From Akkermansiaceae bacterium (GTDB taxonomy: Bacteria; Verrucomicrobiota; Verrucomicrobiia; Verrucomicrobiales; Akkermansiaceae): a stretch of DNA of 44,756 bases. Below the pieces are notes generated by a model. The model was not told the origin of the DNA. It searched no databases and saw only the letters and a list, made by a program, of their open reading frames with translations. The first letter of the stretch is position 1, and every line of letters starts with the position of its first letter. The translations under genes were made by a program, and so were the position numbers. Positions 6,682 to 44,188 of the stretch are shown here, one piece after another. The DNA is taken from contig CAIVSK010000079.1 of assembly GCA_903908495.1 (NCBI GenBank), positions 1 through 44,756 of the forward strand, given 5' to 3'.

Positions 6682-6730
6682 GGGGCTGGCAAGTGAGCGG
6701 CGCGCGGGCGGGTTTTGGCGTGAAAAACAC

Positions 6731-7520: not shown

Positions 7521-7539
7521 GGAAAGAGTGGATTGAAAA

Positions 7540-7971: not shown

Positions 7972-8034
7972 GCCGAGGGAACGTTAAGAGGGGAAGGGCC
8001 GACTTGGCAACGGAATTTTGCGGAAATTTTGCGA

Positions 8035-24993: not shown

Positions 24994-27366
24994 TCAGTTG
25001 GCGGGGCGGGTATCCAACGTGATGGAGGCGGGCGTGAGTCCCGGCGCGGTGGCGCGGAGGGTGATGGTGCCGGTGGCGGCGGAGGCATGCACGGCGGCCT
25101 CGCACTCGCCTTGGAATGCTTTGCGCTGGCTGGCTTGGAACGATTCGTGGCTGGAATTGTCGGCGCTGTCGACCGCGGCGATGACGCCGGGGCCGCTGAG
25201 TTGAAAGCTGATCAGGTTGTTGGCGGTGGGCACGAGCACGCCGTTGGCATCCACCACCGCCGCCGAAACAAAGGCAAGCTCGTCCCAGACCGGCGCGATT
25301 TTCGAGCGATCGGAGGAGAGTACGATGGTGGCCGCCTTGCCGGCGCTGCGCAGCTCATCGGTGGCGGCGGGTTGGCCATGGTTGCTGGCCACCGCGCGCA
25401 AGGTGCCCGGCTCAAACGGCAGCATCCAATTGCGCGGCGCGGCATTTGCATTGAGCGGCTTGGTGCCCAGCGACTTGCCGTTGAGAAACAACTCGACCTC
25501 ATCACAATTCGAGTAGACCTCGACGTTTTCCACGTGCGCATCGAGCTTGCGCGGCGTCCAGTCGGCATACTGCACCTGAGTGTGGCGCTCTTCCCCGCCG
25601 TAGCCCGGGTCATCCGGCATCACATCATTGGGTGCTACGCGGCGCACGATCCGGACCATTGGCCGCTCACTCCACCAACTCTGCCGCTCAAACGCCATCG
25701 GCTTGACGCTTGCGGTGCGGGTCAGCAGGCCCGCCGCATGGCCGATGACCGGCCAGCTGCGGGCCTCGCCGAGGTAATCCACGCCGGTCCACAGGAACTG
25801 CCCGCAATACGTGGGGTGGTCGCGCAAGGCGAGCCAAGTCTGCCTGTCGTGGCCCTGCTCGGTGCCGAGGATCTTGCGTTCCGGTTTGGCGCGCTGGGCG
25901 GCGAGCAATTCCGCGTCGCGATAGTTGGTGCCGATCACATCGAGCATGTCGGCCAGGCCGTTGTCGTAATCATGGCTGACGTTCGGGCGAAACAAGGCCT
26001 GGGTGACCGGGCGGGTGGGGTCGCCGGTGTGGCAAATGTCCACCAACCCCCGCAAAACCCCCTTGGCCCGGGCCTCGTTGGTCGTGTCGTGGATTTCATT
26101 GCCAACACTGTACAGCACCACGCTGGGATGGTTGCGGTCGCGCCGAATCGTGTCGGCCGCATCCCGCTTCGACCAGTCGGTGAAAAATAAACTGTAGTCG
26201 TACGGCTTTTTCCGAACCGTCCAGCAATCGAAGAACTCATCCATGACCAGAAACCCCATGCGGTCGCACAGGTCGAGAAAGTCAGGCGAGGGCGGATTGT
26301 GGGCGGTGCGGATTGCGTTGCAGCCGACCTCGCGCAAGGTCTTGAGGCGGCGTTCCCACACGGCGTTCGGGACGGCGGCCCCGAAGGCGCTGCCATCGTG
26401 ATGCAGGCAGACGCCTTTGAGGACCACTTTTTTGCCGTTCAGGAGGAACCCGGCGTCTGCCGTGAAAGTGGCCTCACGGATGCCGAACGGCACGGTTTCC
26501 TCATCGACCGTCTTGGCGGATTCAATAATCCGAACTGCCACCCGGTGCAGGTCAGGGTGCTGCACATCCCACAACCGTGGGGCCCACGGCATCGCGATAT
26601 CAAGCGTCGCGTCGCGGCCCTGTTTGGCGGGCACCTCGATGGACGGCGACTCCGCGGAGCACGCGTAGCTGCCGTCCGGGGCTGAGCCGGGGGGGCCGTA
26701 GACCGTCGCCACCAGGGTGACCCGGCGCGGGGCGGCCGAGTCGTTGAGCACGCGGGTGGCCACGCGAATGGTGGCTCGATCATGGCCGATGGCCGGGGTG
26801 GTCACAAAAGTCGCGTGCCGTTCGAGGTGCAGCGCATCGGTCAGCACCAGCCGCACATGGCGGTAAATTCCCGCGCCGGAGTACCAGCGCGACGCGGGTT
26901 GGGCGGAAGTGTCGGCGCGCACGGCGATGACATTGGTGGCGTCCGGGCCCACATTGAGGTGCGGGGTCAGGTCGTAGCCGAAGCTCACGTAACCCAGCGG
27001 GCGGGTTCCAAGCGGGTGGCCATTGATCCACACCTCGCTGTTTTGCATCACGCCGTCGAACTCGATCCATACCCGCTGGTCCCTGAGGGCCGGCGGCAGC
27101 ACGAAGCGCTTCCGATACCAAGCCACGCCGGAGGGCAGGAACGCGCCCGCGCCGCCGGTCTTGTTGGTCTCCGCAAACGGTCCGGCAATGCTCCAATCGT
27201 GGGGCACGGCAAGTTGCCGCCAGCCGGAATCGTCGAATTGCGGCTGCTGGGCCGCTGCCACATCGGCCTGCAGGAAGCGCCAGTCCGCATCGAAGGATTG
27301 CGTGAGGCGGGCATCCGCAGCAGCCACTCCCAGGCAAGCCGTGATCATCATCTTGAGCAATCGCAT
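24994..27366 (-). CDS. GH2 beta-galactosidase, secreted
   Basis: The 790-residue protein has a signal peptide (1-18, ending near VAAADA), then a GH2 sugar-binding domain (SGVAWYRKRF, DGVMQNSEVWINGHPLG), an immunoglobulin-like domain (about 180-300), and the TIM barrel. The barrel carries the acid/base Glu424 in YSVGNE and probable nucleophile Glu503 in GTEQGH. MDEFFDCW and RTAHNPPSPDFLDLCDRMG are typical of the group. After it come a DUF4982 domain (VEVYSNCDEVELFLNGKSLG) and a GH2 C-terminal beta-sandwich (LAFVSAAVVDANGVLVPTANN). In this locus the likely job is removal of beta-galactosyl side chains of rhamnogalacturonan-I. The ATG at 27366 is preceded by GGAG with good spacing, one of the few clear ribosome sites here. 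It is divergent from the GH43 gene across a gap with inverted repeats, suggesting shared control. Confidence 0.92.
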   Translation of the reverse strand: MRLLKMMITACLGVAAADARLTQSFDADWRFLQADVAAAQQPQFDDSGWRQLAVPHDWSIAGPFAETNKTGGAGAFLPSGVAWYRKRFVLPPALRDQRVWIEFDGVMQNSEVWINGHPLGTRPLGYVSFGYDLTPHLNVGPDATNVIAVRADTSAQPASRWYSGAGIYRHVRLVLTDALHLERHATFVTTPAIGHDRATIRVATRVLNDSAAPRRVTLVATVYGPPGSAPDGSYACSAESPSIEVPAKQGRDATLDIAMPWAPRLWDVQHPDLHRVAVRIIESAKTVDEETVPFGIREATFTADAGFLLNGKKVVLKGVCLHHDGSAFGAAVPNAVWERRLKTLREVGCNAIRTAHNPPSPDFLDLCDRMGFLVMDEFFDCWTVRKKPYDYSLFFTDWSKRDAADTIRRDRNHPSVVLYSVGNEIHDTTNEARAKGVLRGLVDICHTGDPTRPVTQALFRPNVSHDYDNGLADMLDVIGTNYRDAELLAAQRAKPERKILGTEQGHDRQTWLALRDHPTYCGQFLWTGVDYLGEARSWPVIGHAAGLLTRTASVKPMAFERQSWWSERPMVRIVRRVAPNDVMPDDPGYGGEERHTQVQYADWTPRKLDAHVENVEVYSNCDEVELFLNGKSLGTKPLNANAAPRNWMLPFEPGTLRAVASNHGQPAATDELRSAGKAATIVLSSDRSKIAPVWDELAFVSAAVVDANGVLVPTANNLISFQLSGPGVIAAVDSADNSSHESFQASQRKAFQGECEAAVHASAATGTITLRATAPGLTPASITLDTRPAN

Positions 27367-27513
27367 TGGATCTCCTTTTCGCATACCGTTGTGTTCATCG
27401 GCGCGGCCGAGGGATTCGCAAAGGGCGAAGTCGTATTACCGTCCCATCGCTTGTGGGGATCCATGAATTCACAGCAATTCAGGCAAATCCTTCCAAAATT
27501 GTGAAATCCATGG

Positions 27514-29276: not shown

Positions 29277-31136
29277 TCAGTCCGGCACTTCCAGCGAGAG
29301 GTAGTCGTACATGACGTGGAATTGGGGGGATTGGGTGCGGGTTTGGACGAGGGTGATGGTGTTGGCACCCTGATGCAGGTTGGCGGCGGGGATGGTGATG
29401 CGATTGAAGCAGTACTTGGCGTGAATCGACTCGCGCAGCAAGGCGTTGCCGCCCTGAACGGCGGGGGTGCAGGTGGCCACCGGGTGGTCCTCGGAGTTGG
29501 CGAAAACGTCGAGGCGGGCACCCTCCGCGGAGGCGAAGGCAAGGGTGAGGGTGGCGGCGGCGCCCGGCAGGTGCTCGAGTTGGAAGTGGATCCGCCATTT
29601 CCAAGGGGTTTGGCCTTTCGGCCGGGCCGGATAGCCGGATTGGGCGTAGTTCCAATCGCGCGCCGGATCACTGCGGCCAATGGTGAACTCCAGCGGATTG
29701 GGCCACTCGTCAGCGAAACGGGTCCATAAATAGCCTTGGAAATAGTCGTTGCCGTGACGAAACTCCGCCGCGCTCCGGTCCGGCGTGCCGATTTCCCACA
29801 CCAAGCGGCCACGGTCGCGGACGATCTGCCATGTCAGATCGCCGAGTTGGGTGGTGGCCGCCGCCGCCACGGTCACCTTGGCGCGGCTGAATTCGTCCAC
29901 CGCGCCGTTGGTGAAGGCATACAAGGTGTAGCTGCCGGGGCGGACGTGCGGGATGCTGAAGGTGCCGTCGGCGGCGGCACGGGTCCAGTATTGGTAATGC
30001 TTCGACTCAAACTGCCAGTTGCCGCCAGCCTCCGGTTGCGCCACGCCGACCCAGGCCCCGCCGCCGGCGAGTGCCGGTTTGGCGGCATCGTGTACCAGCA
30101 GGCGGCCGCTGACGCTGCCGCGGCCGCTGGCCGGCGGGTATGCCGCTTGGCCGGTGAGCCAGGCGTATGGCCAGGCGCTGTGCTCGACCTCGGCGCGGCG
30201 TTTGGCGTCGAGGGTTGCCGCGGCGGGGCCGCCGTCGGCTTGGTTGAGATAGAGCAGGAACGGTCCGTAGAGTTTGCGCCAGGACTCGCCGGCCGCGATG
30301 GCCAGGGTCGAGCCGTTGTAGTGGTTCATGCCGAAGTGGACGTGGAGAATGCGGTCGGCGGATGTTAGATCCTGCTTCGTCGGCCCGTCGTTGAACCATT
30401 CGTGCGAACCAAAGACCATCCACGCGCCGAGGCCGTTGCGGGTGCCGGCGTGGCCCCAGAACGGGGTCGTCTGATAGTTGGCATTGTAGTCGTATTTGCA
30501 CTCGAACTTGCCGCCGCGGATGCCGCTGCCGAGCTTGACGATTTCCTTGATGCCGGTGGCCTCGGCGTGGGCCACGTCACTGGCTGTGGGCATCTGGCGC
30601 GAGCGCAGGGCATCGACGGCAATGGTGTCCAGCAGATCATCCGGCAGCTTCCACACCATCCGCCACTCGCCGATGCGGGTGGCCGGATAGCTCGCCGGAT
30701 GCTCGAGGATGACATAAGTGTAGAGGCCGGTGTCGCCCCGACGCAGCACGTAGTGGACCTCGATATCCACCGCCTGGTGCTGGGCCGGGCCTTTTTGGCG
30801 CAGGGCCACATCGACCAGGTCGTCGTTGCGGGTGGTGACTGACAGCGTGCAGCCGGCGGGCACTCGGTAATTAGTGCCGCCATCCATGCTGAAATACGCG
30901 CCGCTGCGGCCTTGGCGCACGAACTCGCTGCCGCGGAACCGCAGCGAGCGCAGCGTGGCACTGGCCTTGGTGATGGTGGCGGTGAGCGCCCCGTTGGCGA
31001 GCACCAGCGTATCACCGCGCTCCACCAGGGTGACGGGTGGCGCTGGCGCGGACGGCGCCGAGGCGGCGAGGGCGGCGCTGGCGAACGGAGCGAGGGCGAG
31101 GGCGAGGGCGAGGATGGAGGTGGGGAAGGTATGCAC
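29277..31136 (-). CDS. PL4 rhamnogalacturonan lyase (RGL4-like), secreted
   Basis: The 619-residue protein has a signal peptide (1-25, LALALALAPFASAALAA), an N-terminal beta-sandwich catalytic domain (to about 330), a fibronectin-like/carboxypeptidase-regulatory domain (SGRLLVHDAAKPAL, SIPHVRPGSYTLYAF), and a C-terminal CBM-like jelly roll (LTLAFASAEGARLDVFAN, YDYLSLEVPD). This three-domain order is that of fungal and plant rhamnogalacturonan lyases. Candidate catalytic residues by motif comparison are the Lys of CKYDYN and the His of MNHYNGST; GESWRKLYGPFLLYLNQ is also conserved. It cleaves the rhamnose-galacturonate backbone by beta-elimination, producing unsaturated ends for GH105, whose gene starts at the window end. 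It is divergent from the fused esterase gene. Confidence 0.88.
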   Translation of the reverse strand: MHTFPTSILALALALAPFASAALAASAPSAPAPPVTLVERGDTLVLANGALTATITKASATLRSLRFRGSEFVRQGRSGAYFSMDGGTNYRVPAGCTLSVTTRNDDLVDVALRQKGPAQHQAVDIEVHYVLRRGDTGLYTYVILEHPASYPATRIGEWRMVWKLPDDLLDTIAVDALRSRQMPTASDVAHAEATGIKEIVKLGSGIRGGKFECKYDYNANYQTTPFWGHAGTRNGLGAWMVFGSHEWFNDGPTKQDLTSADRILHVHFGMNHYNGSTLAIAAGESWRKLYGPFLLYLNQADGGPAAATLDAKRRAEVEHSAWPYAWLTGQAAYPPASGRGSVSGRLLVHDAAKPALAGGGAWVGVAQPEAGGNWQFESKHYQYWTRAAADGTFSIPHVRPGSYTLYAFTNGAVDEFSRAKVTVAAAATTQLGDLTWQIVRDRGRLVWEIGTPDRSAAEFRHGNDYFQGYLWTRFADEWPNPLEFTIGRSDPARDWNYAQSGYPARPKGQTPWKWRIHFQLEHLPGAAATLTLAFASAEGARLDVFANSEDHPVATCTPAVQGGNALLRESIHAKYCFNRITIPAANLHQGANTITLVQTRTQSPQFHVMYDYLSLEVPD

Positions 31137-31238: not shown

Positions 31239-33449
31239 ATGTCGTCACGTATTCCTGCTATTGCCGGCCTCGTCCTGTGGGCGATGGCCGTGATTTGTTG
31301 GGCAAATCCGGTGTTGTATCTCATTGGGGACTCGACGGTGCGCACCGGCACTGCGGGCCAGCAAGGGTGGGGCGACGCGTTGGTGCCCGCATTTGATCCG
31401 GCCAAAATCGAGGTGATCAACCGCGCGATCGGGGGGCGCAGCAGCCGGACTTACCTAACCGAAGGGCGGTGGGACGCGCTGCTGGCCAACCTCAAGGCCG
31501 GGGATTTCGTGCTGATGCAGTTTGGTCACAACGACGGCGGGCCCTTGAACGACGAGCGTTGCCGGGCGTCCATCAAGGGCAATGGCGACGAGTCGGAAGA
31601 CATCGTCCGCAAGCCGGATGGCAAGCCGGAAACGGTGCACAGTTACGGCTGGTATCTGCGCAAATACGCCAGTGAAGCCACCGCCAAGGGGGCCATTCCG
31701 ATCGTCATCTCGCCGATTCCGCGCAACATCTGGAAGGATGGCAAAGTCACCCGCGAGGAGCAGGGCCTGAGCCTCTGGGCCAAACAAGCGGCGGCGCAGC
31801 AGGGCGCTTTGTTCATCGATTTCAACCGGATTCTGGCGGATCGGTTTGATGCTCTCGGCCAGGCAAAAACCGCCGGGCTGTTTGCCGGGACGGATCACAC
31901 CCACACGGCCCCGGCAGGAGCGGAGTTCAATGCGGCGGCCATGATTGGCGCGCTGCGGACGCTGGCGGGCTGCCAGCTCGCCAAGTGTTTGTTAGATGCG
32001 CGGCTGTGGCTGCCGGCGGTGTTTGGAGACCACATGGTGCTGCAGCGCGACAAGCCGCTTGCGGTGTGGGGGATGGCGCTGCCGGGCGCGGCAGTGGTTG
32101 TGAAACTGGCGGGACACACCGCCACCAGCCGGGCGGACGACAAGGGTGCTTGGAAAGTGGAGTTGGCGGCGCTGGCGGCGGGCGGGCCCTATCAGCTAGA
32201 AGTGGCGGCCGGGGCGGAGGCGCGGAGTTACGCGGATGTGCTGATGGGGGATGTGTGGCTGTGCTCGGGGCAATCGAACATGGATTTCACGCTGGCCAAG
32301 ACGGCGAAGCGCTCATTTTCCGGGGCAGCGGACTGGGACAAGGAGGTGGCGGCGGCGGATCATCCGCAGCTGCGGATGTTCAGCGCCGAGTGGGCGATGA
32401 ATGAACGACCGCAACGCGAGCTGGCGGGGGCGTGGGTCGCTTGCTCGCCGCAAACCGCCGGCGAATTTTCCGCGGTGGCGTATTATTTCGGCCGCAGCCT
32501 GCAGCAGCAACTCAAGGTGCCGGTGGGCCTGGTGACCAGTGCCTATGGCGCGAGCACGATCGAGGCGTGGATGCGCGAGGAATGCTTGGCGGCGCATCCG
32601 CAATTCAGCGACTTGCTACATGCCATGGGAAAGAAGGCCCTGGCGTATCGCGACGATCCGAAGTTTTTCCTCGATTACGGCAACGCGCTGGCCAAGGCCG
32701 GCCGCGGCCGCGCGCCCAAGAATCCCGATCCATTTCGCGACCAGCACAACCCGAGCGTGCTGCACAATGGCATGATTGCGCCGCTGGTTCCCTATGGCAT
32801 CCGCGGCGTGATCTGGTACCAAGGTGAGTCGAATTTAAACACCCGCAAACTCTATCCGGATCTGCAGGAGGTCCTCATCGGGGATTGGCGCCAGCAGTGG
32901 AATGATCCGGCACTGCCGTTCTATTTCGTGCAGCTTGCCGCCTACAAGGCACCTGCGGCCCAACCGTCCGGCGGCCAGTTGCCCGAGATGCGCGAGGCCC
33001 AGGCCAAGGCGCTGGCGCTGCCCCACACCGGCATGGCCGTCACCATCGATATCGGTGATGAAAAGGACGTGCATCCCCGCAACAAGCTCGACGTCGGCAA
33101 GCGGCTGGCCCGCCTCGCACTGACCGATGCGTATGGTCAGGCCGGCGAAGCGAGTGGCCCGGTGCTGCGCGGGCAGGAGCTGCAAAACGGCCGCATCCGC
33201 TTGCGCTTCGACCACGCCGAGGGCGGGCTGGTGGCCAAGGGCGGGCCATTGCGGCAGTTTGCCATTGCGGCGGCCGATCGCAAATTCGTCTGGGCCGAGG
33301 CGGTGGTGGAGGGCAACAGCGTGATGGTTTCCAGCCCCGCCATCGGCAAGCCGGTCTTCGTCCGCTATGCATGGGCCGACAACCCGGCGGGTGCCAATTT
33401 ATATAACTCCGCCGGCCTCCCCGCAGCCCCTTTCCGCAGCGACCCATGA
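31239..33449 (+). CDS. Two-domain esterase: rhamnogalacturonan acetylesterase + sialate-O-acetylesterase-like
   Basis: The 736-residue protein joins two SGNH-type esterases. After a signal peptide (1-22), the first domain (about 25-245) is CE12/RhgT-like. It has Ser32 in GDSTV, the GGRSS loop (65-69), Asn98 in FGHND and Asp219/His222 in DHTHT. The second domain (about 255-736) starts with LWLPAVFGDHMVLQRDKPL, the usual mature start of sialate-O-acetylesterase-like (SASA/DUF303) proteins. It carries nucleophile Ser346 in CSGQSNM, the GVIWYQGESN motif, and probable Asp/His in DEKDVHP (about 607-612). Both active sites look complete. A single secreted protein may remove acetyl groups from different positions on pectin. 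The open frame extends far upstream, antisense to the lyase gene; the ATG at 31239 is chosen because it opens the signal peptide. Its stop overlaps the next start (ATGA). Confidence 0.85.
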   Translation: MSSRIPAIAGLVLWAMAVICWANPVLYLIGDSTVRTGTAGQQGWGDALVPAFDPAKIEVINRAIGGRSSRTYLTEGRWDALLANLKAGDFVLMQFGHNDGGPLNDERCRASIKGNGDESEDIVRKPDGKPETVHSYGWYLRKYASEATAKGAIPIVISPIPRNIWKDGKVTREEQGLSLWAKQAAAQQGALFIDFNRILADRFDALGQAKTAGLFAGTDHTHTAPAGAEFNAAAMIGALRTLAGCQLAKCLLDARLWLPAVFGDHMVLQRDKPLAVWGMALPGAAVVVKLAGHTATSRADDKGAWKVELAALAAGGPYQLEVAAGAEARSYADVLMGDVWLCSGQSNMDFTLAKTAKRSFSGAADWDKEVAAADHPQLRMFSAEWAMNERPQRELAGAWVACSPQTAGEFSAVAYYFGRSLQQQLKVPVGLVTSAYGASTIEAWMREECLAAHPQFSDLLHAMGKKALAYRDDPKFFLDYGNALAKAGRGRAPKNPDPFRDQHNPSVLHNGMIAPLVPYGIRGVIWYQGESNLNTRKLYPDLQEVLIGDWRQQWNDPALPFYFVQLAAYKAPAAQPSGGQLPEMREAQAKALALPHTGMAVTIDIGDEKDVHPRNKLDVGKRLARLALTDAYGQAGEASGPVLRGQELQNGRIRLRFDHAEGGLVAKGGPLRQFAIAAADRKFVWAEAVVEGNSVMVSSPAIGKPVFVRYAWADNPAGANLYNSAGLPAAPFRSDP

Positions 33450-34276
33450 GCCGGCGCCTGTTCGTATCACTGGTTGCCGCCACCCTGGCGGCTGGCGGCC
33501 GGCTGGCTGCCGCGGAAGACCCGCGGCCCGTGGTGGATGCGTCCACCGTCGCGGTGGAAACCGCTGCCAACCGCGCGCTGCCGACCTTGCATCTCGTCGG
33601 CGATTCCACCGTGCGCAGCGGCGGCAAGGCCGGCATGTGGGGGTGGGGTGAGCGCATCGCGCCGTTTTTCGATTCTCACAAAATCAACGTCGTCAACCAC
33701 GCGATCGGCGGCCGCAGCGCCCGTACCTTTTTCACCGAAGGCCGCTGGCAGAAAGTGGTCGATGTCCTCCAGCCCGGCGATTTTGTCATCATTCAGTTCG
33801 GCCACAATGATCTGGGTCGCATCGGCGATCCGGCGAACAAAGGCCGCGCCGATGGCAGCGGCACCGGCGATGGCACCGTGGCCGACACCCGGCCCGATGG
33901 CAGCACGGAACTCGTCCACACCTTCGGCTGGTACATGGCAAAGTTCGTGACCGAGGCCCAGGCGAAACACGCCGGGGTCATCCTGTGTTCGCCGATCCCG
34001 CACTTGCAGCGCTGGCAGAGCGGCCGCGACTTCGAGAACATCGCCCGCTGGGATGCGGAGGTCGCCACCACTCACCACGCGCTCTTCATGGATCTGACCC
34101 AGATCATCACCGACGCCTACAAGCAAGCCGGCAAGGACAAGGTGGCGACGTTCTTCGCCGACACCGGCACCCACACCAGCGACCTCGGCGCGCAGTTCAA
34201 CGCCGCCTGCGTCATCGCCGGCCTGCGCCGCCTGCCCAACCCGCCGCTGGCCGGATTCCTGTCCGCCAAGGACTGA
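33446..34276 (+). CDS. Rhamnogalacturonan acetylesterase (CE12-like)
   Basis: This is a 276-residue SGNH hydrolase with a signal peptide (1-23). Active-site motifs are Ser54 in GDSTV, GGRSART (88-94), Asn121 in FGHND and Asp239/His243 in DTGTH. It removes acetyl groups from rhamnogalacturonan galacturonate so the lyase can act. It is closely similar along its length to the first domain of the upstream fused esterase (shared IGGRS-RT, TEGRW and QFGHND), so the two are tandem paralogues. Translation is coupled by the 4-base ATGA overlap. Compared with the paralogue, it has an insert rich in Gly/Asp (about 130-150). The sensor kinase gene starts about 60 bases after its stop. Confidence 0.9.
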   Translation: MSRRLFVSLVAATLAAGGRLAAAEDPRPVVDASTVAVETAANRALPTLHLVGDSTVRSGGKAGMWGWGERIAPFFDSHKINVVNHAIGGRSARTFFTEGRWQKVVDVLQPGDFVIIQFGHNDLGRIGDPANKGRADGSGTGDGTVADTRPDGSTELVHTFGWYMAKFVTEAQAKHAGVILCSPIPHLQRWQSGRDFENIARWDAEVATTHHALFMDLTQIITDAYKQAGKDKVATFFADTGTHTSDLGAQFNAACVIAGLRRLPNPPLAGFLSAKD

Positions 34277-34332
34277 CTGGCTGGAGGGGTGGGAAAAATT
34301 GGCCTTGCCAAGGGCCGGTGAGCGCGCCGATT

Positions 34333-37143
34333 GTGCATTCCAAGCTATTGCATACCAGGCATCCATCCAGAGCACTCATTTTCGCGTTGCTGATATTGTG
34401 GGCCGGCGCGGCGGCGATTTCGGCGCAAGCCGGGGCGTTGGTGCGGGTGTGGCAGTCGCAGGACGGCTTGCCGGGCAACGTGGTCCGCTCGGTGGTGCAG
34501 GCCAGCGACGGCTACCTGTGGGTGGCCACGGCGGAGGGGATTGCGCGTTTCAATGGCTTCGAGTTCGAGTCGGTCGAAGCCGGCAGCGAGTCGAGCCGGC
34601 ATCGGCTGGCGTTTTCGCGGCTGTTTGCCTGTTCGGGCGGGCGGGTGTTTGCGGCGACCTATCAAGGCGGGCTGTTTGCCGCGGGCGGCGGGAAGTTGAG
34701 CCGGATTCTGGCGAATATGCGTGACCCCCAGCCGCGCCAAGTGACCCAGTTGGTGGAGGAGGCGGGCGGCGCGGTGCTGATCAAGCGGGGTGAGGAAGTC
34801 AGCCGCATCGACGCCAAGGGTGGGATTGCCCGCCTGCCCGCATCGGAAGAACTCGAAGCCGCCTTCGCGGCGGACCTCAAGCAGCGGGTGGCCGGTGGCA
34901 GGAGCGTCGATGCCAATAGCGGCTTGGTGCTGAGCGACCGGATGGGCCGGGTCTGGCGCGCGGGTGCCGGCGGTGGTCTGACCGTTGCGCTCGGCGGCGA
35001 AGCGGAGGTGCATGTGGAACTGCCCCAATGCGGCCGCGCCTTCGCGGTCAATGAATTGTTGGAAGACAGCGAGGGGAATTTGTGGGCGGCCACTCACGTC
35101 AACGGCTTGGTGCGGGTCCGGTTGGCGCGCGTCGAGGTGGTCGATTCCAACGCCGGGCAGGGTGAACCCGCGGTTTCCGCCTTGCTGGAGGACCGGGCGG
35201 GCACTTGGTGGCTTGCCAAGCGCCGCGGCGGGCTGGACCAGCGGCGGGCGGGGGTCACGCGCCATATCGGTTTGTCGAGCGCGCGCAATCCGCGGCCGGC
35301 GGCGGCCCTGTTTGAAGACCAGCGCGAGCGGCTGTGGGTGGCGACGCAGGATGGCAGCGTGTTTCGCTACGATGCGGGCGTGTTCCAACCGCAGTTTGGC
35401 AAGTCCCAGATTCCCTCCAAGGTGCGCTCCATCACGCAGGATGCCAGTGGCGTGTTGTGGTTTGGCGGCTCGCAGGGGTTGGCCAGCTTGACCGGGGACA
35501 CGGTGCGCCAGCTCGGCAGGGAGGATGGGGTGGAGGACCTCGATTTGACCGTCATCCAGGCCTTTCCCGGCGGTAAAATCATCGCCGGCAGCTCGACCGG
35601 GACTGTTTTGTTAGGTAATGCGGGCGGCTTTCGCAGCATAGCAGCGCCGGAGGTTCTGAAGCACAGCTGGATTTCGGGCATTCTGCCGCTTACGGCCAGC
35701 CAGACCTGGGTATCCACCCTTGGTGGTGGGCTTTTCCTGTGGGATGGGGCACGCTGGACGGGTTTTGACGCCAACGACGGGCTGCCGGACGCGCGGCTCA
35801 CCTGTGTGTTGGATGATCCCGCGGGGTTCCTGTGGTTGGGGTCGTTGGGTGGCATCATCCGGGTGGAACGCCGCGAATTGCTGGCGCACAGCCAGCACCC
35901 CGAGTCCGCCGTGCGATGGCTGCGCCTCGATCACAGCGACGGCCTGCTGTCGCGCGAATGCATCGGCGGCTTTCAACCGGCGGGGTGGCGGGGGCGGGAT
36001 GGATTGCTATGGTTTGCCACCGGTAGCGGCATTGCCCGGGTGCGGCCGGAGGTGGTGGAGGCCAATCCGGTGGCACCGCCGGTGTATTTGCAGAACGTCA
36101 GCGCCAATGGCATGATCAAGGTTGGCGCGGGTGGCCCGGTCACCACCGCGCCGGGCCGCGCCCGTCTCGAGTTCCATTTTGTCGGCATCAGCCTCAGCGC
36201 GCCGGAAAAAATCACCTACCGCGCCCGGCTCGCCGGACTCGACGATGCGTGGCGGGAACTCGGCAGCCAGCGCGTCGCCGCCTTTGAAGCGGTGCCGCCG
36301 GGACGCTACACGTTCGAGGTGATGGCGATCAATGGCGACGGTCTGCGCAGCGAGGCCGCGGCGCGAATGGCGGTGGTGATTCCGCCGCAACTGTGGCAGA
36401 CGGCATGGTTTTACATGGCTGCGGGCGGGTGCGTGGTCCTGCTGGCTACCGGCAGCGGCTGGCTCGCCGCTCGAATGCGCCTCAAAGGCCGGATCCAGGC
36501 ATTGAAAGTCCGCCAGGCCGCGGCGGGCGAGCGCACCCGCATCGCCCGCGATTTGCATGACGAACTGGGTGCCAGTCTAACCGAGATTTCAATGCTCGCC
36601 GCGCTCGCCGCCGAGGATGCCGCGCAATCCGAACTGCGGCCCCAGCTCGACCAACTTTCGGTCAAGGCGAAACACGTCGTCGGCAATTTGGATGAAATCG
36701 TCTGGGCGGTCAATCCGCGCGAAGACACCCTGCGCTCGCTGGTCGACTACCTCGCGGCCTTTGCCCGCGAGTTTCTCGATATCGCCCGCATTCCGCTGCG
36801 GCTCGACGTCGCCCGCGAGATTCCCGCCTATCCGCTCGCCACCGCGCAGCGCCATGGCTTGTATCTGGTCACCCGCGAAGCGCTCAATAACATCGTCAAA
36901 CACGCGGCGGCCACCCAGGTCATGCTCGGCATCGCGGTGACCGACCAGCGGTTGGAAATCAGCATTGCCGACGACGGCCGCGGCTTCGAGCCGGACGAGG
37001 TGGTCGGCGGCGATGGCCTCGGCAACCTGAAACAGCGCATGCACCAAGCCGGCGGCGAGTGCCGGATCGAATCGTCGCGCGGCCACGGCACCCGCGTTTT
37101 TCTGAGTTTCCCCTTGCCGGGTTCCACCAAACCTGTTTCCTGA
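34333..37143 (+). CDS. Sensor histidine kinase with Reg_prop propeller and Y_Y_Y domain
   Basis: The product is about 936 residues. A signal or anchor segment (ALIFALLILWAGAAAISA) leads into a periplasmic two-component-regulator propeller of about seven or more blades (repeats such as DGYLWVATAEGIARFNG, EGNLWAATHVNGLVRV, SGVLWFGGSQGLASL and DGLLWFATGSGIARV). A Y_Y_Y domain (TYRARLAGLDDAWRELG), a transmembrane helix (near 690-710), a HisKA_3 dimerisation domain with phospho-acceptor His742 in RDLHDELG, and a HATPase_c domain (EALNNIVKHA, ADDGRGF) follow. The propeller likely senses a pectic oligosaccharide. The response regulator follows after 5 bases. No ATG is available near the signal sequence; in-frame GTG codons at 34318 and 34333 and TTG at 34348 are options. 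I give 34333, so the start is uncertain by about 15 bases either way. Confidence 0.9.
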   Translation: MHSKLLHTRHPSRALIFALLILWAGAAAISAQAGALVRVWQSQDGLPGNVVRSVVQASDGYLWVATAEGIARFNGFEFESVEAGSESSRHRLAFSRLFACSGGRVFAATYQGGLFAAGGGKLSRILANMRDPQPRQVTQLVEEAGGAVLIKRGEEVSRIDAKGGIARLPASEELEAAFAADLKQRVAGGRSVDANSGLVLSDRMGRVWRAGAGGGLTVALGGEAEVHVELPQCGRAFAVNELLEDSEGNLWAATHVNGLVRVRLARVEVVDSNAGQGEPAVSALLEDRAGTWWLAKRRGGLDQRRAGVTRHIGLSSARNPRPAAALFEDQRERLWVATQDGSVFRYDAGVFQPQFGKSQIPSKVRSITQDASGVLWFGGSQGLASLTGDTVRQLGREDGVEDLDLTVIQAFPGGKIIAGSSTGTVLLGNAGGFRSIAAPEVLKHSWISGILPLTASQTWVSTLGGGLFLWDGARWTGFDANDGLPDARLTCVLDDPAGFLWLGSLGGIIRVERRELLAHSQHPESAVRWLRLDHSDGLLSRECIGGFQPAGWRGRDGLLWFATGSGIARVRPEVVEANPVAPPVYLQNVSANGMIKVGAGGPVTTAPGRARLEFHFVGISLSAPEKITYRARLAGLDDAWRELGSQRVAAFEAVPPGRYTFEVMAINGDGLRSEAAARMAVVIPPQLWQTAWFYMAAGGCVVLLATGSGWLAARMRLKGRIQALKVRQAAAGERTRIARDLHDELGASLTEISMLAALAAEDAAQSELRPQLDQLSVKAKHVVGNLDEIVWAVNPREDTLRSLVDYLAAFAREFLDIARIPLRLDVAREIPAYPLATAQRHGLYLVTREALNNIVKHAAATQVMLGIAVTDQRLEISIADDGRGFEPDEVVGGDGLGNLKQRMHQAGGECRIESSRGHGTRVFLSFPLPGSTKPVS

Positions 37144-37148
37144 TTGCC

Positions 37149-37826
37149 ATGTCGCTCTCCCGCGAATCGGTCACTGAAGTCGCCATCGTCGAGGACAATG
37201 CCGCGCTGGGGGCTGGGCTGCGCAAAATCGTCGAGTCCGCGTCGGATTTCCGCTGCGTCGGCGTCTGGTCCCGCGCCGAGGAGGCGTTGAAAAAAATCGA
37301 TGCATTCCGGCCGCAGGTGGTGTTGATGGACATCAATCTGCCCGGCATGTCTGGCATTGAGGCGACGGCCCGTCTCAAGCGCCATTTGCCGGAGATTCAA
37401 GTGATCATGGTCACGGTTTATCGCGATCACGACCAGATATTCGCCGCGCTCAAGGCCGGGGCCGCTGGCTATCTGCTCAAGCGGTCGACTCCAGAGGAGG
37501 TGCGCCAGGCGATCCGCGACGTCCGCGCCGGCGGTGCCCCGATGACTGCGGAAATCGCCCGCCGGGTCGTCGAAGCGTTCCACCAGCCGGCCAAGGCCGC
37601 CGCGGCGGACATCGACGCGGTGAAGCTTTCCAAGCGCGAAACCGAGCTGCTCGAATTGCTCGCCAAGGGGCTGGCGAACAAGGAGATCGGCGACCGTTTG
37701 ACCATCAGCGTGGAAACCGTGCGGGTCCATCTGCGGCGGATTTATGACAAACTCCACGTCCACTCCCGCACCGAGGCCGCGATGAAGTTCCGCGACTCGA
37801 AGGAAGGTTCTTCCGGCATGCTTTGA
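37149..37826 (+). CDS. NarL/LuxR-type response regulator
   Basis: The 225-residue protein has an N-terminal receiver domain with acceptor Asp61 in VVLMDINLPGMSG and the conserved Lys in YLLKRSTPEE. The C-terminal LuxR helix-turn-helix (about 160-220) reads LSKRETELLELLAKGLANKEIGDRLTIS and then VETVRVHLRRIYDKLHV. It starts 5 bases after the kinase stop and is clearly the partner of the HisKA_3 kinase, as is usual for NarL-type systems. It probably controls the surrounding pectin genes, and the TGGTCA repeats at 27514-27555 are possible targets. The start ATG at 37149 precedes the receiver domain; the longer frame inside the kinase gene is rejected. Confidence 0.93.
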   Translation: MSLSRESVTEVAIVEDNAALGAGLRKIVESASDFRCVGVWSRAEEALKKIDAFRPQVVLMDINLPGMSGIEATARLKRHLPEIQVIMVTVYRDHDQIFAALKAGAAGYLLKRSTPEEVRQAIRDVRAGGAPMTAEIARRVVEAFHQPAKAAAADIDAVKLSKRETELLELLAKGLANKEIGDRLTISVETVRVHLRRIYDKLHVHSRTEAAMKFRDSKEGSSGML

Positions 37827-38052: not shown

Positions 38053-41000
38053 ATGAAGCCCTCACGCCTCTCGCTCCGCACCTCCGCGCTCTTCCACGGC
38101 CGTTTATGCTCCGCCGCTACCCTTGTCATCAGCCTTTGTGCTTCATCCCTCGCCTCGGCGACGAGCGCGACTTGGCTGGCCTCTCCGGTGGACGGGACCT
38201 GGAACAGTGCGACGAACTGGTCGGTGGCAGCTTTCCCGAATGGCACCGGGGATTCCGCCACCTTCAATGTCGCCTCGACCTTTGGCGGCAGCTCGAGCCC
38301 GGTCACCCCATCCGTGGCGGTCACCATCCAGAATATGAACTTCGCAGCGGCGGCCGGTCCCTATGTGGTGGGCGTCAATGGTGGTTCTGCGATCATCGTC
38401 CGGGGGGGCGGATCTGGTGGCACCCCGTCCTATGGCAATAGCATCAACATCGCCGCCGCGGTTACCAACTCGCAAGTCGTGGCAGCTCCGATCTCTTTCA
38501 GCGCTCCCTCAAGCACGACGATTGGCTACACTTTCAAGAACGACTCGACCACCGCGGCGGCGACGCTCACGCTTTCCGGTGCGATCACGGCCAATACCGC
38601 CACCAACCGCTCCACCGCAATCAGCCTCGACGGGGCCAACACGGGCAACAATACGCTCAGCGGCGTCATCACCACGAGCCTCGCCACCAGCGGTGTATCT
38701 AACATCGTCCTAAAGAAAGAAGGCGTCGGGACCTGGATTCTTGCGGGTGCGAACGTCTTCAGCGGTGCTAACATAACAAGCACAGCTGGAACCCTCGGCA
38801 TTCAAGTGAATGCGGGCGTCCTGTCGATCCAGAACAACCAAGGCCTCGGGACGAGCGGGACGGCCAACAATCTGCAAACCTGGGTCAATAGCGGTGCCAA
38901 GCTCGAACTCGCTAACAACATTACCTTGGACAACGGTGTCTCGCTCAATCTCAGGAGTGGTGGCACGATCCGTTCTTCAGGGTCCACCACCACCAACGGC
39001 CGCATTACCCTCGGCGCGATCGCCGCGACCTCGGCCACCCTGTCAACCGTCGGCTCCGGCGATGTCTTCACCATCGGCAATGCCGCGAATGATTTCACCG
39101 GCGGGCTGAGCGACACTGTGACTCACATTGCAGGCCCCGGCACCGTGATGTTGGGCCAGGCCAGCAACTACGCCGGCACCGTGTCGGTGGATGCCGGCAC
39201 CCTTCATCTGGGCAATGCCACCGCGCTCGGCACGGCCACCAGCGCAGGCATCGGCTTCGGCTCCGGTTCGACCGGCAAAGTGTGGCTCGATGGCATCAGT
39301 CTGACTGTGGCCACGCTCAACACCAACGCCGCGGTCGGCACTCCGGTCATTGAAAATAACAACAGCACTGCTGCAACTCTGACGGTGAGCAGCACCTCAG
39401 GCACCAGTACCTATGCCGGCATCCTGCAGGACGGCGCGGCGGGCACCCTCGGTCTAGCCAAATCTGGCGCGAACACCCTCAGCCTTGCCGGAGTCAATAC
39501 CTATACCGGCACCACCGCCGTGACTGGCGGCATCCTCCAGGTGACCGGTTCACTTGCCTCTTCCGCGGTGACCCTTGGCAGCAGCTCGACGCTGGCGGGC
39601 ACCGGCACGCTGGCGGGATCCGTCACGGTCGCTTTGGGCTCAACGGTCGCCCCGGGCAGCGGCGGCATCGGCACCCTCAGCGTGGGCGGGCTGACTCTCA
39701 ATTCGGGCTCGCTCCTGGCTTACGACATCGCCAGCACCGCCTCACACGATCAAATCAACGTCACCACCAGTGGCGCGCTAACCATCAATGGCGGGGCCGT
39801 TACCCTCAATGGCGGGGCGAATTTCTCGGCCAATGGGGTGTACAACCTGATTGGATACAGTGGTGCCATCGGCGGTTCGGGGGTCGGCGCGCTGTCGCTG
39901 GCCAACTCGCCGGTGGTCGGTAAAACATATACCTTCGGCTCGGCGGGCGGATTCGTCACCTTGACGGTCGCCGACTCAGCCGCCGCCGTGAACTATTGGA
40001 ATGCCGATAGCGACGGCTCGTGGGGCACGGGAGCCGACTGGTCCGTGGGTTCCGCCCCCAATACGGCGGGTACCTTTGCCGCCTTGGGGGGTGGTGGTAC
40101 CCCGATCACCGCGCCGCGTACCATCACGGTGGCCTCCGCCTACACCGTCGGAACCTTGTCGTTCAATAATGCCACTTCCGCCTACACGCTCGCTGATGGC
40201 GGCGGTGGCAGCCTCATTCTCGACGGCGACAGCGCCAGCGCCTCGGTCACCGCTACGGCGGGCAGCCATGGCATTGCCGTGCCGCTGGTCACCAACAGCT
40301 TCGGGGCCACCTTCTCGACCGTTGGAGCGGCTGACACGCTGACGGTCTCGGGTGTGATCAGTGGCAACGGCAAGCTGACCAAAGGCGGCAACGGCACCCT
40401 CGTCCTCACCGGTTCGAACACCTATCTGGGAGGCACCGCGATCTCTGCCGGCACCGTCACGGTCAATAGCAGCACCAGCCTCGGTGATGCCAGCGGGGCG
40501 GTCTCCATCGGCGCCGCCACCTTGAAGGCCACGGCCAGCATCTCTTCGCTCCGGGCGTACCAACTGGGCGACGCCGCCACTACCCTGGCGGTGGATGCCG
40601 CTGCCACCCTGACCCTCAACGGAGTGATTGCCGACGGCAGTGCCGCCGGTACCCTCAATAAAACCGGCGCAGGCACTCTGGCCCTCACCGGAGCCAACAC
40701 CTTCACCGGTGGCACGCTGGTCAGCGCTGGCACGCTCAGCGCCAATGGCGACGCCGCTCTCGGCGCGGTGGCCACCCTGACCCTCAACAGCGGCACCAAG
40801 CTGCAAGCCGGCGCTGCCTTCGCCCTCGGTGCCGCCCGCGGTGTGGTGCTGGCCGGTGGCAGCGTCGCGGTGGACACCAATTCCTACGCCATCAACCTTA
40901 CAGGCGCGGTGAGCGGCAGCGGAGCCCTCGACAAAACCGGCACCGGCACCCTGACCTTGAGCGGCACCAACACCTATGCCGGTGGCACGCTCGTCGATGG

Positions 41001-42942
41001 CGGCATGCTGGTTATTGGCAATTCGATTGTGGGAGGCATCACCCTGGCCGATGCCACGACGCTGAGTGTGCCCACCGGCGGTATCGGCAACGCCATCACC
41101 CTGTCCGGAACCAACGCGAATGCGACCTTCCTCGCGGCAGGCGTTTCCAACGGCTCGACCGGCTCCGTCTCGGGATCCGCCGATCAAAAGCTCACTCTCG
41201 GTGGAACGACACAGGTCAGTTTCGGGGCGACCACCAAGCAATTCCAAGGATTGCTTGGAACCGTGGCGATCCCGACGGGGGCCACCTTGCGCTTCGGTGC
41301 CACGAGTCTCGCCAACGGTGGCGACTCCACCACGTTTGACGTCAATGGCTTTTTGACCACCCGCAACAATGGCAACGTGGCGCTGGGCGCTCTCACAGGT
41401 GCCGGAACCGTCACCATGGGCGTGGCCGGTAGCGTGGGTCAGCACGTGACCTACACGATTGGCGCCAAAGCGATCACCGCCCTGTTTTCAGGCGTGATCG
41501 CCGACGGCAACACCGCCAACGGACAACTGGTGGCCGTTACCAAAACGGGCGCGGGCATCCAAACCCTCACCGGCGCCGATACCTTCAGCGGCGGCCTGTT
41601 TGTCAATGCCGGCATTCTCCAGTGCCGCGCCCAATCGCTGGGTGCGGGGTCCGTCGCGGTCACTGGCGGCCACATCGAGCTGGGTTGGTTTGAGACCCCC
41701 ACCGCGACCTACACCAGCGCCAACCCCGTCACGATCAATGGCGGCGGCCTCTATGCGTGGGATGCCTATCAGCATCTGAGCGGCACCATCGCCATTGGTG
41801 CCAGCGGCGGCAGCCTCGGTTCGTCCTTCAACAATGCGGGTGCCGACACTAACAAAGGCCTGTTTGTCGACGGAGTCCTGAGTGGCACCGGAGCCCTCAC
41901 GGTCCAGCAGACGTATGGTGGCACCAACGCCTGGGAAACCTCGATCGTTTTCCTAACCAACAACGCCAACACCTATGCGGGCACCCTGAGCGTCAACGCC
42001 AACAGCGGCGGGGGCGTCTATGTAGCCCTCGACGCGGCCAACGCGCTGGCCAGTGCCACGCTTAACCTAACCGGCAGCCCCGGTGGTGCCAAACAATTCG
42101 GCAACAGCCAGCTGGTGTTCACCACCAATCTGGGCGGGGCGGCAACGCTGGGTGCCCTCACCGGCAGCGGCGACGTCGCGCTGAGCGAGTATGATCCAAG
42201 CGCACACACCGTGGCGGCCACCCCGGTGGCGCTCACCGTCGGCGGCAACAACGCCACCACGACCTACAGCGGGATCCTGAGTGGTGGCGGCAGCCTGACC
42301 AAGTCCGGAACCGGCGCGCTGACCCTCGGCGGTGCCAACACCTATACCGGCGACACCACGGTCACCGCGGGGATTCTGGCGGTCAACGGCACCTCGCTCG
42401 CCGATTCCGGCAAGCTGGTCATCACCGGCGGCCAGGTCCAAGCCACCGGCACTGAAACCGTCGCCTCCCTCTACTTCGGTGCGGTGCAACAAGTCGCCGG
42501 GACCTGGGGCGCAACCGGCTCCGGCGCGGCAAACATCAATGACACCTGCTTCGCCGGGACCGCCGGGGTGGTGTTGGTGACCAGCGGCAGCGGCCCGGCG
42601 AACTACGCCAGCTGGGCCGCAACGCACGGGGTGACCGGTGGATTGACCGCGGATTCGGACCACGACGGGATCTCCAATGCCGTGGAATACGCGCTCAACC
42701 TCAACTACGCGGGGTCTGATGGCAGCGTCGGAACTCTAACCCGCAACACGCTCTCATTCACCAAGCGCGCCGAGGCGGTCGCCAACGGAGACGTCACCTA
42801 CACCATCGAAGCCTCGATCGACATGGTGACTTGGGCACCGGTGACACCTGAAGTGGACAATGCCACCACGATATCGTACAATCTGCCCGCCGGCATGAGC
42901 ACGGTGTTTGCGCGTCTCAACGTGACCATTGCCACCCCCTGA
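38053..42942 (+). CDS. Large autotransporter-associated beta-strand-repeat (PATR) protein, secreted
   Basis: The 1629-residue protein has a signal peptide (about 1-36) and at least seven PATR units (PF12951), beginning near residues 220, 468, 775, 868, 959, 1162 and 1415. Each follows the pattern L-x-K-x-G-x-G-T-L-x-L-T-G-x-N-T-Y-x-G-G. Two further modules (near 36-70 and 648-681) share W..DG.W....WS...PN, suggesting an internal duplication of the first 600 residues. The predicted fold is a long beta-helix. The C-terminus has a Ca-binding-like DSDHDGISNAVEYALN segment and a small beta domain, and no autotransporter beta-barrel or PEP-CTERM signal is visible. It could be an adhesin or a surface carbohydrate-binding protein for pectin; this is inference from context. 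A hairpin terminator follows. Confidence 0.88.
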   Translation: MKPSRLSLRTSALFHGRLCSAATLVISLCASSLASATSATWLASPVDGTWNSATNWSVAAFPNGTGDSATFNVASTFGGSSSPVTPSVAVTIQNMNFAAAAGPYVVGVNGGSAIIVRGGGSGGTPSYGNSINIAAAVTNSQVVAAPISFSAPSSTTIGYTFKNDSTTAAATLTLSGAITANTATNRSTAISLDGANTGNNTLSGVITTSLATSGVSNIVLKKEGVGTWILAGANVFSGANITSTAGTLGIQVNAGVLSIQNNQGLGTSGTANNLQTWVNSGAKLELANNITLDNGVSLNLRSGGTIRSSGSTTTNGRITLGAIAATSATLSTVGSGDVFTIGNAANDFTGGLSDTVTHIAGPGTVMLGQASNYAGTVSVDAGTLHLGNATALGTATSAGIGFGSGSTGKVWLDGISLTVATLNTNAAVGTPVIENNNSTAATLTVSSTSGTSTYAGILQDGAAGTLGLAKSGANTLSLAGVNTYTGTTAVTGGILQVTGSLASSAVTLGSSSTLAGTGTLAGSVTVALGSTVAPGSGGIGTLSVGGLTLNSGSLLAYDIASTASHDQINVTTSGALTINGGAVTLNGGANFSANGVYNLIGYSGAIGGSGVGALSLANSPVVGKTYTFGSAGGFVTLTVADSAAAVNYWNADSDGSWGTGADWSVGSAPNTAGTFAALGGGGTPITAPRTITVASAYTVGTLSFNNATSAYTLADGGGGSLILDGDSASASVTATAGSHGIAVPLVTNSFGATFSTVGAADTLTVSGVISGNGKLTKGGNGTLVLTGSNTYLGGTAISAGTVTVNSSTSLGDASGAVSIGAATLKATASISSLRAYQLGDAATTLAVDAAATLTLNGVIADGSAAGTLNKTGAGTLALTGANTFTGGTLVSAGTLSANGDAALGAVATLTLNSGTKLQAGAAFALGAARGVVLAGGSVAVDTNSYAINLTGAVSGSGALDKTGTGTLTLSGTNTYAGGTLVDGGMLVIGNSIVGGITLADATTLSVPTGGIGNAITLSGTNANATFLAAGVSNGSTGSVSGSADQKLTLGGTTQVSFGATTKQFQGLLGTVAIPTGATLRFGATSLANGGDSTTFDVNGFLTTRNNGNVALGALTGAGTVTMGVAGSVGQHVTYTIGAKAITALFSGVIADGNTANGQLVAVTKTGAGIQTLTGADTFSGGLFVNAGILQCRAQSLGAGSVAVTGGHIELGWFETPTATYTSANPVTINGGGLYAWDAYQHLSGTIAIGASGGSLGSSFNNAGADTNKGLFVDGVLSGTGALTVQQTYGGTNAWETSIVFLTNNANTYAGTLSVNANSGGGVYVALDAANALASATLNLTGSPGGAKQFGNSQLVFTTNLGGAATLGALTGSGDVALSEYDPSAHTVAATPVALTVGGNNATTTYSGILSGGGSLTKSGTGALTLGGANTYTGDTTVTAGILAVNGTSLADSGKLVITGGQVQATGTETVASLYFGAVQQVAGTWGATGSGAANINDTCFAGTAGVVLVTSGSGPANYASWAATHGVTGGLTADSDHDGISNAVEYALNLNYAGSDGSVGTLTRNTLSFTKRAEAVANGDVTYTIEASIDMVTWAPVTPEVDNATTISYNLPAGMSTVFARLNVTIATP

Positions 42943-42972
42943 TACTCACCTAACAATATCGCGGTTCTGTCA

Positions 42973-43000
42973 CGGAGCGCCGGCTGCAGCCAGCGCTCCG
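42973..43000 (+). terminator. Hairpin after the PATR gene
   Basis: Arms CGGAGCGC (42973-42980) and GCGCTCCG (42993-43000) form a perfect 8-base stem, with a further GGCTG-CAGCC fold inside. TTTACTC follows, a short U-tract. It ends the large PATR transcription unit, 19 bases before the DUF4861 start. Read-through is likely because the U-tract is weak. Confidence 0.6.
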
Positions 43001-43018
43001 TTTACTCATCTAACCACC

Positions 43019-44188
43019 ATGCATCCCTGTCTCAAGCCCGCCGCAGTCGCGGTTCTGGTTGCCCTGCCCGCCCTGGCAGGCGCTGCCCGCATCGATATCC
43101 GTGCCGCCAATCCGCTGCCACTGGCCCGCAGTGGCCAGACCCTGGAAATATCCGCGAAGGAGTTGGCACCCCTGCACGCCAAAAACCTCAACTTGATCCA
43201 CGTGACGGATGCGCGGGGCGATGAGTTGATTTGCCAGGCCATCGATACCGATGGCGACGCCCTGCACTCCTTCGATGCGGTGATTTTCCAAGCGGACTTC
43301 GCTGCGGGGGAAACTCTAACGTTCAGTGTGACGGTGGGTGCGAAACAGGTCTATCAAAAAGACCGGTTCAAGGCATTCAGTCGGTTCGTGCGGGAGCGAT
43401 TCGATGATTTCGTCTGGGAGAACGACCGCGTCGCCCACCGCGTCTACGGCCAGGCGCTGGAGACTTGGCAGGGCGAACCGCTCACCAGCAGCACCGTGGA
43501 TATCTGGTCGAAACGCACGCCGCGCATGGTCGTCAACGATTGGTATCTGGCCGACGACTATCACGTCGATCACGGCGAGGGGGCCGATTTCTATTCCGCG
43601 GGCATGAGCCGCGGCTGCGGCGGCAGCGGCGTGTGGGCTGGCGAGCGCTTGTGGGTGTCGCACAATTTCATCAATTCGCGGGTGCTCGCCAATGGCCCGC
43701 TGCGGGTCCTGTTTGAACTTGAGTACGCCCCATTTCCCGTCAACGGTGCGAGTATCGGCGAAACCAAACGCATCGCGCTGGACGCCGGCCAACAATTCAG
43801 CCGCTTCGAAAGCCACTATCATCCCGCCGTGGCCGCCCCCCTCGAGCTCACCGCCGCGGCGGGGCTGAAGAAGGTCAAAAACGAGCAGGTTGAACTCAAT
43901 GCCGCCCAAGGCTGGCTCGCCAAATGGGAAGCCATGGAAAACCACGCCGGCTCGCAAGGCGTGGCGTTGATCACCGCGCCCGCCGTCTTTGCCAGGCAGA
44001 CTGAGGATGCGCTCAACCACCTCGTCCTGATCCACCCGGATGCCAGCCAAGTCGCGACCTATTGGGCCGGATTCTGTTGGGATAAGGCCGGCCGTTTCAC
44101 CGATGCGCAGGCCTGGAACCGCCACGTCAGCGAGTTCGCCAAGGGGCTGGCAGCGCCGATTCAACTCAAACTCACCCTGCTGCCATGA
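43019..44188 (+). CDS. DUF4861 family protein, secreted
   Basis: The 389-residue protein has a signal peptide (1-22, ALPALAGAAR). The body is a beta-rich DUF4861 domain: FRFVRERFDDFVWENDRVAHRVYG-like spacing appears as RFVRERFDDFVWENDRVA, with WSKRTPRMVVNDWY and GMSRGCGGSGVW as landmarks. In other genomes this family is found among pectin-degrading genes, but I know of no firm activity for it. The close coupling to the GH105 gene (ATGA overlap at 44185-44188) suggests a role in processing unsaturated rhamnogalacturonan fragments. The start ATG at 43019 gives a clean signal sequence; the longer frame from 42929 is rejected because it overlaps the terminator hairpin and is not conserved-looking. 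Confidence 0.85.
   Translation: MHPCLKPAAVAVLVALPALAGAARIDIRAANPLPLARSGQTLEISAKELAPLHAKNLNLIHVTDARGDELICQAIDTDGDALHSFDAVIFQADFAAGETLTFSVTVGAKQVYQKDRFKAFSRFVRERFDDFVWENDRVAHRVYGQALETWQGEPLTSSTVDIWSKRTPRMVVNDWYLADDYHVDHGEGADFYSAGMSRGCGGSGVWAGERLWVSHNFINSRVLANGPLRVLFELEYAPFPVNGASIGETKRIALDAGQQFSRFESHYHPAVAAPLELTAAAGLKKVKNEQVELNAAQGWLAKWEAMENHAGSQGVALITAPAVFARQTEDALNHLVLIHPDASQVATYWAGFCWDKAGRFTDAQAWNRHVSEFAKGLAAPIQLKLTLLP

Follow-up and report, generated by a model that had tools for sequence, protein, structure and literature searches.

Acetyl groups block the breakdown of pectin, and proteins that carry several esterase domains are known elsewhere. In a 44,756-nucleotide stretch of an Akkermansiaceae genome (contig CAIVSK010000079.1, assembly GCA_903908495.1; hereafter the window), one gene appears to join two such domains, which raises the question of which esters its product removes and whether both active sites serve the same polymer. 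A preliminary description had read the gene as a CE12-like domain joined to a sialate-O-acetylesterase-like one, and suggested that the protein attacks acetyl esters of two kinds on a single polymer.

Here, we delimit the two domains and their active sites, trace the join through related genomes, and propose, at a probability of roughly 0.7, that the product is a secreted enzyme that deacetylates pectin at two active sites on a single chain.

Domain structure and active sites

The ORF translation holds 736 codons open in one frame, within which Pfam recognizes a GDSL domain (residues 29-206) and a SASA domain (residues 520-627; Table 1). Sequence searches of the PDB matched residues 26-244 to the Aspergillus RGAE 1deo, and two stretches of the C-terminal half (residues 250-735) to three solved bacterial CE20 enzymes. 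An AlphaFold2 model computed from 18 aligned fusions (the window's and 17 relatives, with the further relative L191 left out) reached a pLDDT of 84.7 and a pTM of 0.80. Its residues 255-736 superpose on the CE20 enzyme XacXaeA (7kmm; Z 43.0, 2.0 Å, 419 residues), and the C-terminal half likewise on 9h4u (Z 42.9, 447 residues aligned). The claim of two apparently complete esterases on one chain is borne out by the sequence, the model, the conserved active sites, and 18 relatives.

Table 1. Coordinates of the fusion gene, its parts, and its neighbors in the window.
Feature	Positions	Strand	Remarks
CE12-CE20 fusion gene	31239..33449	+	736 aa, ATG start, TGA stop
Probable signal peptide, residues ~1-22	31239..31304	+	hydrophobic core judged by eye; low model confidence at residues 14-21
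CE12 (GDSL/SGNH) domain, residues 25-245	31311..31973	+	Pfam, PDB sequence search, alignment, model superposition
CE12 catalytic codons	S32 31332-31334, N98 31530-31532, D219 31893-31895, H222 31902-31904	+	
Linker, residues ~246-253	31974..31997	+	alignment of fusions, model
CE20 domain without ancillary domain, residues 254-736	31998..33446	+	Pfam, PDB search, alignment, superposition
CE20 catalytic codons	S346 32274-32276, D610 33066-33068, H612 33072-33074	+	
Second, separate CE12 gene	33446..34276	+	276 aa; its ATG overlaps the fusion's stop (ATGA)
PL4 rhamnogalacturonan lyase	29277..31136	-	619 aa, divergent to the fusion; Pfam; start codon uncertain
GH2 glycosidase	24994..27384	-	796 aa; Pfam
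Sensor kinase frame (two-component propeller, Y_Y_Y, HisKA_3)	33985..37143	+	true start probably after 34276
LuxR-type response regulator	37059..37826	+	Pfam
Strand-repeat protein	38053..42942	+	1629 aa, mostly autotransporter-type strand repeats
DUF4861 protein	42929..44188	+	downstream of the strand-repeat protein

The N-terminal half contains SGNH Blocks I, II, III, and V with their Ser, Gly, Asn, and Asp-x-x-His, and the residues S32, G66, N98, D219, and H222 are unchanged in all 18 aligned fusions. Model residues 24-255 take the fold of the Aspergillus aculeatus RGAE 1deo (Z 31.1, rmsd 1.8 Å, 224 residues), with which the GDST, GRSxR, GHNDGG, and DHTHT blocks line up. RGAE is a single-domain chain of 233 residues, whereas the window's CE12 is joined to a CE20 in a bacterium. 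Ahead of this domain, the hydrophobic core points to a probable signal peptide, and the fusion protein would be secreted. Between the matched domains lie 5-15 residues across 20 same-order fusions, the length for the window itself depending on where the query was cut. The preliminary description placed the join where the second domain's mature sequence begins; the junction does lie at about residues 246-253 and the CE20 match opens at positions 17-25 of the deposited chains, close to their N-terminus, which would correspond to a mature start.

In the superposed model, the C-terminal half is an SGNH domain flanked by N- and C-terminal beta-sandwiches, as CE20 requires, and it holds both the GQSNM serine (S346) and the D/N-x-H block (D610, H612). 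With XacXaeA (7kmm), Fl8CE20_II (9h4u), and PpCE20_II (9ega) it shares the fold, the GQSNM, YQGES/YQGET, and DxH motifs, and 40-44% identity over aligned residues, but all three carry an ancillary beta-sandwich insert that is absent from the window's CE20, the one fused to a CE12; here, 47 residues (457-503) face positions 218-406 of the 9h4u chain. The catalytic domain is uninterrupted, as in SIAE-like CE20s. Animal SIAE (8f9o-8f9r) has the CE20 fold without the insert (Z 36.8-37.6) and sets a precedent for a Ser-His dyad, but it is 31-32% identical, serves sialic acid in vertebrates, and lacks a CE12. No sialic acid genes were recognized among the 18 window proteins scanned. The CE12 assignment therefore stands beside a revised one for the second domain, for which CE20 (XacXaeA type) without ancillary domain is, as judged from sequence and model, the better name; we dropped "sialate O-acetylesterase".

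Both catalytic sets named in the preliminary description are present and, D610 aside, kept throughout the 18 aligned fusions: S346, E530, and H612 are unchanged in every one, while D610 is Asn in one (L047). None of 135 CE20 rows departs from S346 or H612; at position 610, 114 of them have Asp and 18 have Asn. The available part of PMC12313940 describes a water-mediated triad with natural Asp/Asn exchange for CE20s that have an inserted ancillary domain, this domain forming part of the substrate cleft and helping to hold the water; it notes reports of Ser-His dyads for the eukaryotic CE20 sialic acid esterases that lack the insert. Because the ancillary domain is absent, the window's CE20 has no partner for the triad as that text presents it, and because 47 residues stand where the insert would be, a Ser-His dyad is the likelier guess over a full triad. 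The model cannot decide between the two, since loop 605-611, which contains D610, has a pLDDT below 50.

Occurrence and ancestry of the join

We searched for the fusion through its CE12 half, and the genome counts given here rest on CE12 matches within the stated E-value limits. Among 260 genomes of the family Akkermansiaceae, 30 have a match at E 1e-60 or better; 19 of the 260, the window's included, carry CE12-CE20 in one frame and in this order, and two carry the reversed CE20-CE12. In nine of the 30 matching genomes the CE12 stands alone, near a CE20, or with another partner. The window's fusion shares 51-70% identity with the 17 same-order relatives aligned to it; the eighteenth, L191, is 68% (CE12) and 66% (CE20) identical. 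The arrangement also occurs in one of the 345 genomes in the class of the Bacteroidales genome L068. At a limit of E 1e-55, eight of these have a CE12, with 11 matches in total; we opened every one, and G1071 (L198) encodes CE12-CE20 in a 745-codon frame.

Elsewhere in the order and phylum (386 and 387 genomes), we did not see the fusion in the loci opened, which covered part of the matches: 30 of 55, of which 26 in the family, plus 23 further loci, with G133, for example, left out. These loci carried 1500 bases of flank, and the very long frames L152, L160, and L165 were seen in part. A scan of named organisms with the fusion alignment returned at least 80 CE20 loci, none with a same-frame CE12 among the matches listed; both of its patterns lay in the CE20 half, and it gives no measure of the frequency of the fusion elsewhere. 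No description of the CE12-CE20 architecture was found in the literature searched, a scope that took in few subscription papers and preprints. CE12-CE20 is a new arrangement, modest in kind, of known pectin-digesting families.

The 18 fused rows group as a single clade in the CE20 tree (SH-aLRT 97; 99/96 for eight of them in a more careful tree). That careful tree held 39 hand-picked rows chosen after the quick one: eight of the 18 fused, eight neighbors (two of them reversed), 22 others, and L198. Adjoining the fused clade are the reversed pair and L014, whose frame is cut by a contig end, and the clade around the reversed pair otherwise consists of unfused CE20s from Verrucomicrobiota, a Rhodanobacteraceae, and a Bacteroidales genome. 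The CE20 of L198 falls outside the fused clade in the 39-row tree (100/100 split; p-AU 0.0004 against one clade). A single clade is not rejected in the 136-row quick tree (p-AU 0.597), whose search was poor, since the one-clade test, by keeping the group in one piece, arrived at a better tree. As L198's CE20 lies outside the fused clade, the CE20 half gives support for two joins or more.

The reversed order is possibly a third, separate join on the tree evidence. Eight fused and three reversed-branch rows make up one side of a branch in the CE20 tree with support of 78/40, and fused and reversed-branch rows are separate in the CE12 tree, with p-AU 0.056 against one clade. The CE12 of L198 cannot be placed outside the fused clade with confidence either (p-AU 0.080). 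The fused CE12 clade comprises 23 rows, of which three have no CE20 in frame (L052, L055, and L059) and two have another SGNH partner (L058 and L064). Partners have therefore been lost, exchanged, or gained within it, and the CE12-CE20 pairing is not obligatory.

Gene neighborhoods of fused and unfused pairs

A divergent PL4 lyase, a GH2 glycosidase, a second CE12, and a sensor-regulator pair lie close to the fusion in the window (Table 1); a GH2 also adjoins the unfused CE20 in L069 and L068. Relatives frequently carry other lyases. In the 17 relatives' loci surveyed (G753 was left out), a PL1-like lyase domain, identified by matching the solved structure of pectate lyase 9buj, is present in 11. 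Ten of these have it as the N-terminal part of a 1624-2036-residue frame directly downstream of the fusion on the same strand, and PATR strand repeats occur in ten of ten such giants; the PL1 domain of L183 is in a separate frame that lies past a giant one. Downstream of the fusion in L174 is a PL11-PATR protein. L177, L184, and L186 (three of the 17) have neither PL1 nor a PATR giant, and the L182 locus is cut by a contig end. Pfam recognizes GH106 in L174 and the unfused locus L190, and six further loci have it by clustering with these two.

The giant frames downstream of CE12-CE20 that combine PATR repeats with PL1 (L171-L173, L175, L178-L181, L185, and L187) or PL11 (L174) range from 1624 to 2051 aa. 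At the corresponding position, L176 encodes a PATR protein of 1716 aa (2357-7504, reverse strand), with an N-terminal part that has no Pfam match at E 1e-5. We considered the window's own strand-repeat protein as a counterpart of the relatives' PL1 giant and rejected this: it shows only strand repeats and weak local similarity to the giants of two relatives, and Pfam and NCBIfam recognized no catalytic or barrel domain in it.

Unfused kin also place the two families together. L069 combines GH2, CE20, GH29, GH2, CE12, GDSL, and PL10; L068 includes SusD, CE20, GH2, GH28, CE12, and a sulfatase; and L073 holds a CE12-CE12 protein, a CE20, GH29s, and GH28. A CE12 frame lies within 10 kb of the unfused CE20 in three of five same-clade loci as against none of 75 others among the matches listed (p 1.2e-4), for a clade chosen after seeing the tree and with flanks of differing length. 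All 80 listed CE20 loci were placed, 79 by their own tree row and L069's gene as L015; L107 and L109, of the same CE20 clade, have no CE12 in the locus. Five scanned neighbors of the two reversed fusions include no pectin enzyme, and L198 adjoins SusD, TonB-plug, and fasciclin genes, among which none was recognized either.

The CE12 gene of the L069 pectin locus (9185-10138, forward strand) lacks the Block V Asp, reading GAGPHTS, and may be inactive or use a dyad. In L190 (G032; 7401-9941, reverse strand), an unfused CE12 and CE20 are adjacent in the same order and strand with 15 bases between the frames. This pair is unlikely to be a forerunner of the fusion, because both genes fall outside the fused branches and its CE12 is of the DxxxH type described below.

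Proposed function and its alternatives

In the mechanism that we propose, the CE12 half would act like rhamnogalacturonan acetylesterase and strip acetyl from galacturonate in the backbone of pectin, and the CE20 half, through Ser346-His612, would take a second class of acetyl from the same pectin, at another position or on a side-chain sugar. The short linker would hold both sites on one molecule, and deacetylation would make the chain accessible to the lyases of neighboring genes (PL4 in the window; a giant PL1 or PL11 in many relatives). The gene, its two conserved sets of active-site residues, the repeated pairing, and the pectin genes nearby are observed; secretion, catalysis, the esters cleaved, and any kinetic advantage of the fusion are our inference.

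That the same families are joined in two phyla and in both orders, and that some unfused kin are co-located, argues for both halves acting on the same polymer. For the "one polymer" of the preliminary description, support is indirect, coming from the pectin genes around the fusion and several unfused kin and from the pairing being met again in the opposite order and beyond the phylum; "two kinds of acetyl ester" on it is plausible. As the loci hold both RG-I enzymes (PL4, PL11, and GH106) and homogalacturonan lyases (PL1 and PL10), the probable substrate is best called acetylated pectin. The CE20 half could instead act on a non-pectin substrate, given that the available part of PMC12313940 records CE20 activity measured on xylan and xyloglucan and a link to pectin by gene neighborhood only. 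If our reading is right, a natural CE12-CE20 protein would tie one CE20 branch to pectin, and the fusion could be used as it stands for two-site deacetylation of pectin in biomass work.

The strongest competitor, which we regard as a real but lesser possibility, is that both halves deacetylate the same type of residue (galacturonate O-2 versus O-3), or the same ester in RG-I versus homogalacturonan. The mixture of enzymes for the two polymers fits this reading as well as ours, with PL4 in the window, PL1 in 11 of 17 relatives, PL11 in L174, and PL10 in L069, and the best NCBIfam match of the CE12 half is the pectin acetylesterase PaeY, a weak match of 43.7 bits where the cut-off is 1000. The closest solved CE12, 1deo, is in contrast an RG-I enzyme.

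The fusion might also be a neutral join of neighboring genes, kept as harmless and without functional coupling, which we consider unlikely. Adjacent, unfused genes as in G032 offer a parallel, though they come from other branches, and the fused CE12 clade has members that lack a CE20 or have another partner; against this, the join has outlasted a divergence of the sequences to 51-70% identity, and the pairing also exists in the other order and beyond the phylum. Less probable still is a CE20 half that has been converted or weakened and chiefly binds or positions substrate for the CE12. The missing ancillary domain and the poorly modeled loop 605-611 would fit such a protein, but the invariance of its catalytic residues and the reported Ser-His dyads of insert-free eukaryotic CE20s speak against it. 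Finally, a missed stop or frameshift near residue 250, which the preliminary description named as a refutation, is excluded, and an assembly artifact in a draft genome of 432 contigs has a negligible chance, because 18 other family genomes carry both domains in one open frame in the same order.

A two-site pectin deacetylase would have a further candidate partner in the window's second CE12, in which Block V reads ADTGTHT, that is, DxxxH. Across 73 CE12 domains, the Block V Asp is in the canonical column (H-3) in 48 and one residue further from the His (H-4; DxxxH, mostly ADx[GH]THT) in 22; two read DNLH with an alignment gap (L153 and L156), and the one in L069 has no Asp. The extra CE12 gene of fusion-bearing genomes is DxxxH in 13 of 13 fetched (genes in L209-L222), with no additional CE12 gene listed for five other such genomes. 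CE12-CE12 tandems of other Verrucomicrobiota resemble the fusion in having two esterase domains per chain but differ in the second, which is a DxxxH CE12 (13 of 13: L151, L154, L158-L163, L165-L167, L169, and L073) rather than a CE20; all 12 of their first domains in the set have the Asp in its canonical column. Three proteins depart from this pattern: L058 and L064 have as second domain a distant SGNH (28-29% identity), and L201, a tandem from Bacteroidia, is DxxH in both domains. We found no description of the DxxxH type in the literature searched, including the available part of PMC9487903.

We tentatively suggest that CE12 and CE20 form a coupled pair for acetylated pectin, joined at least twice (in Akkermansiaceae and in a Bacteroidia lineage) and possibly three times if the reversed order is separate, and that the DxxxH CE12 would complete a three-site set, with a different acetyl position for each site.

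The neighbors of DxxxH CE12 genes were also considered as a pectin locus, which was rejected: ten neighbors in five genomes are LeuA, amylase, transporter, or DUF proteins or have no match. Other domain combinations occur as well. CE12 is joined to PL11, a GH88-family domain with GH43, GH35, polysaccharide deacetylase, or GH10 in L152, L202, L165, L062, and L067, and four frames of 1012-1218 codons (G047:C16, G050:C14, G043:C4, and G053:C84) have two CE20 matches each and are probable CE20-CE20 tandems.
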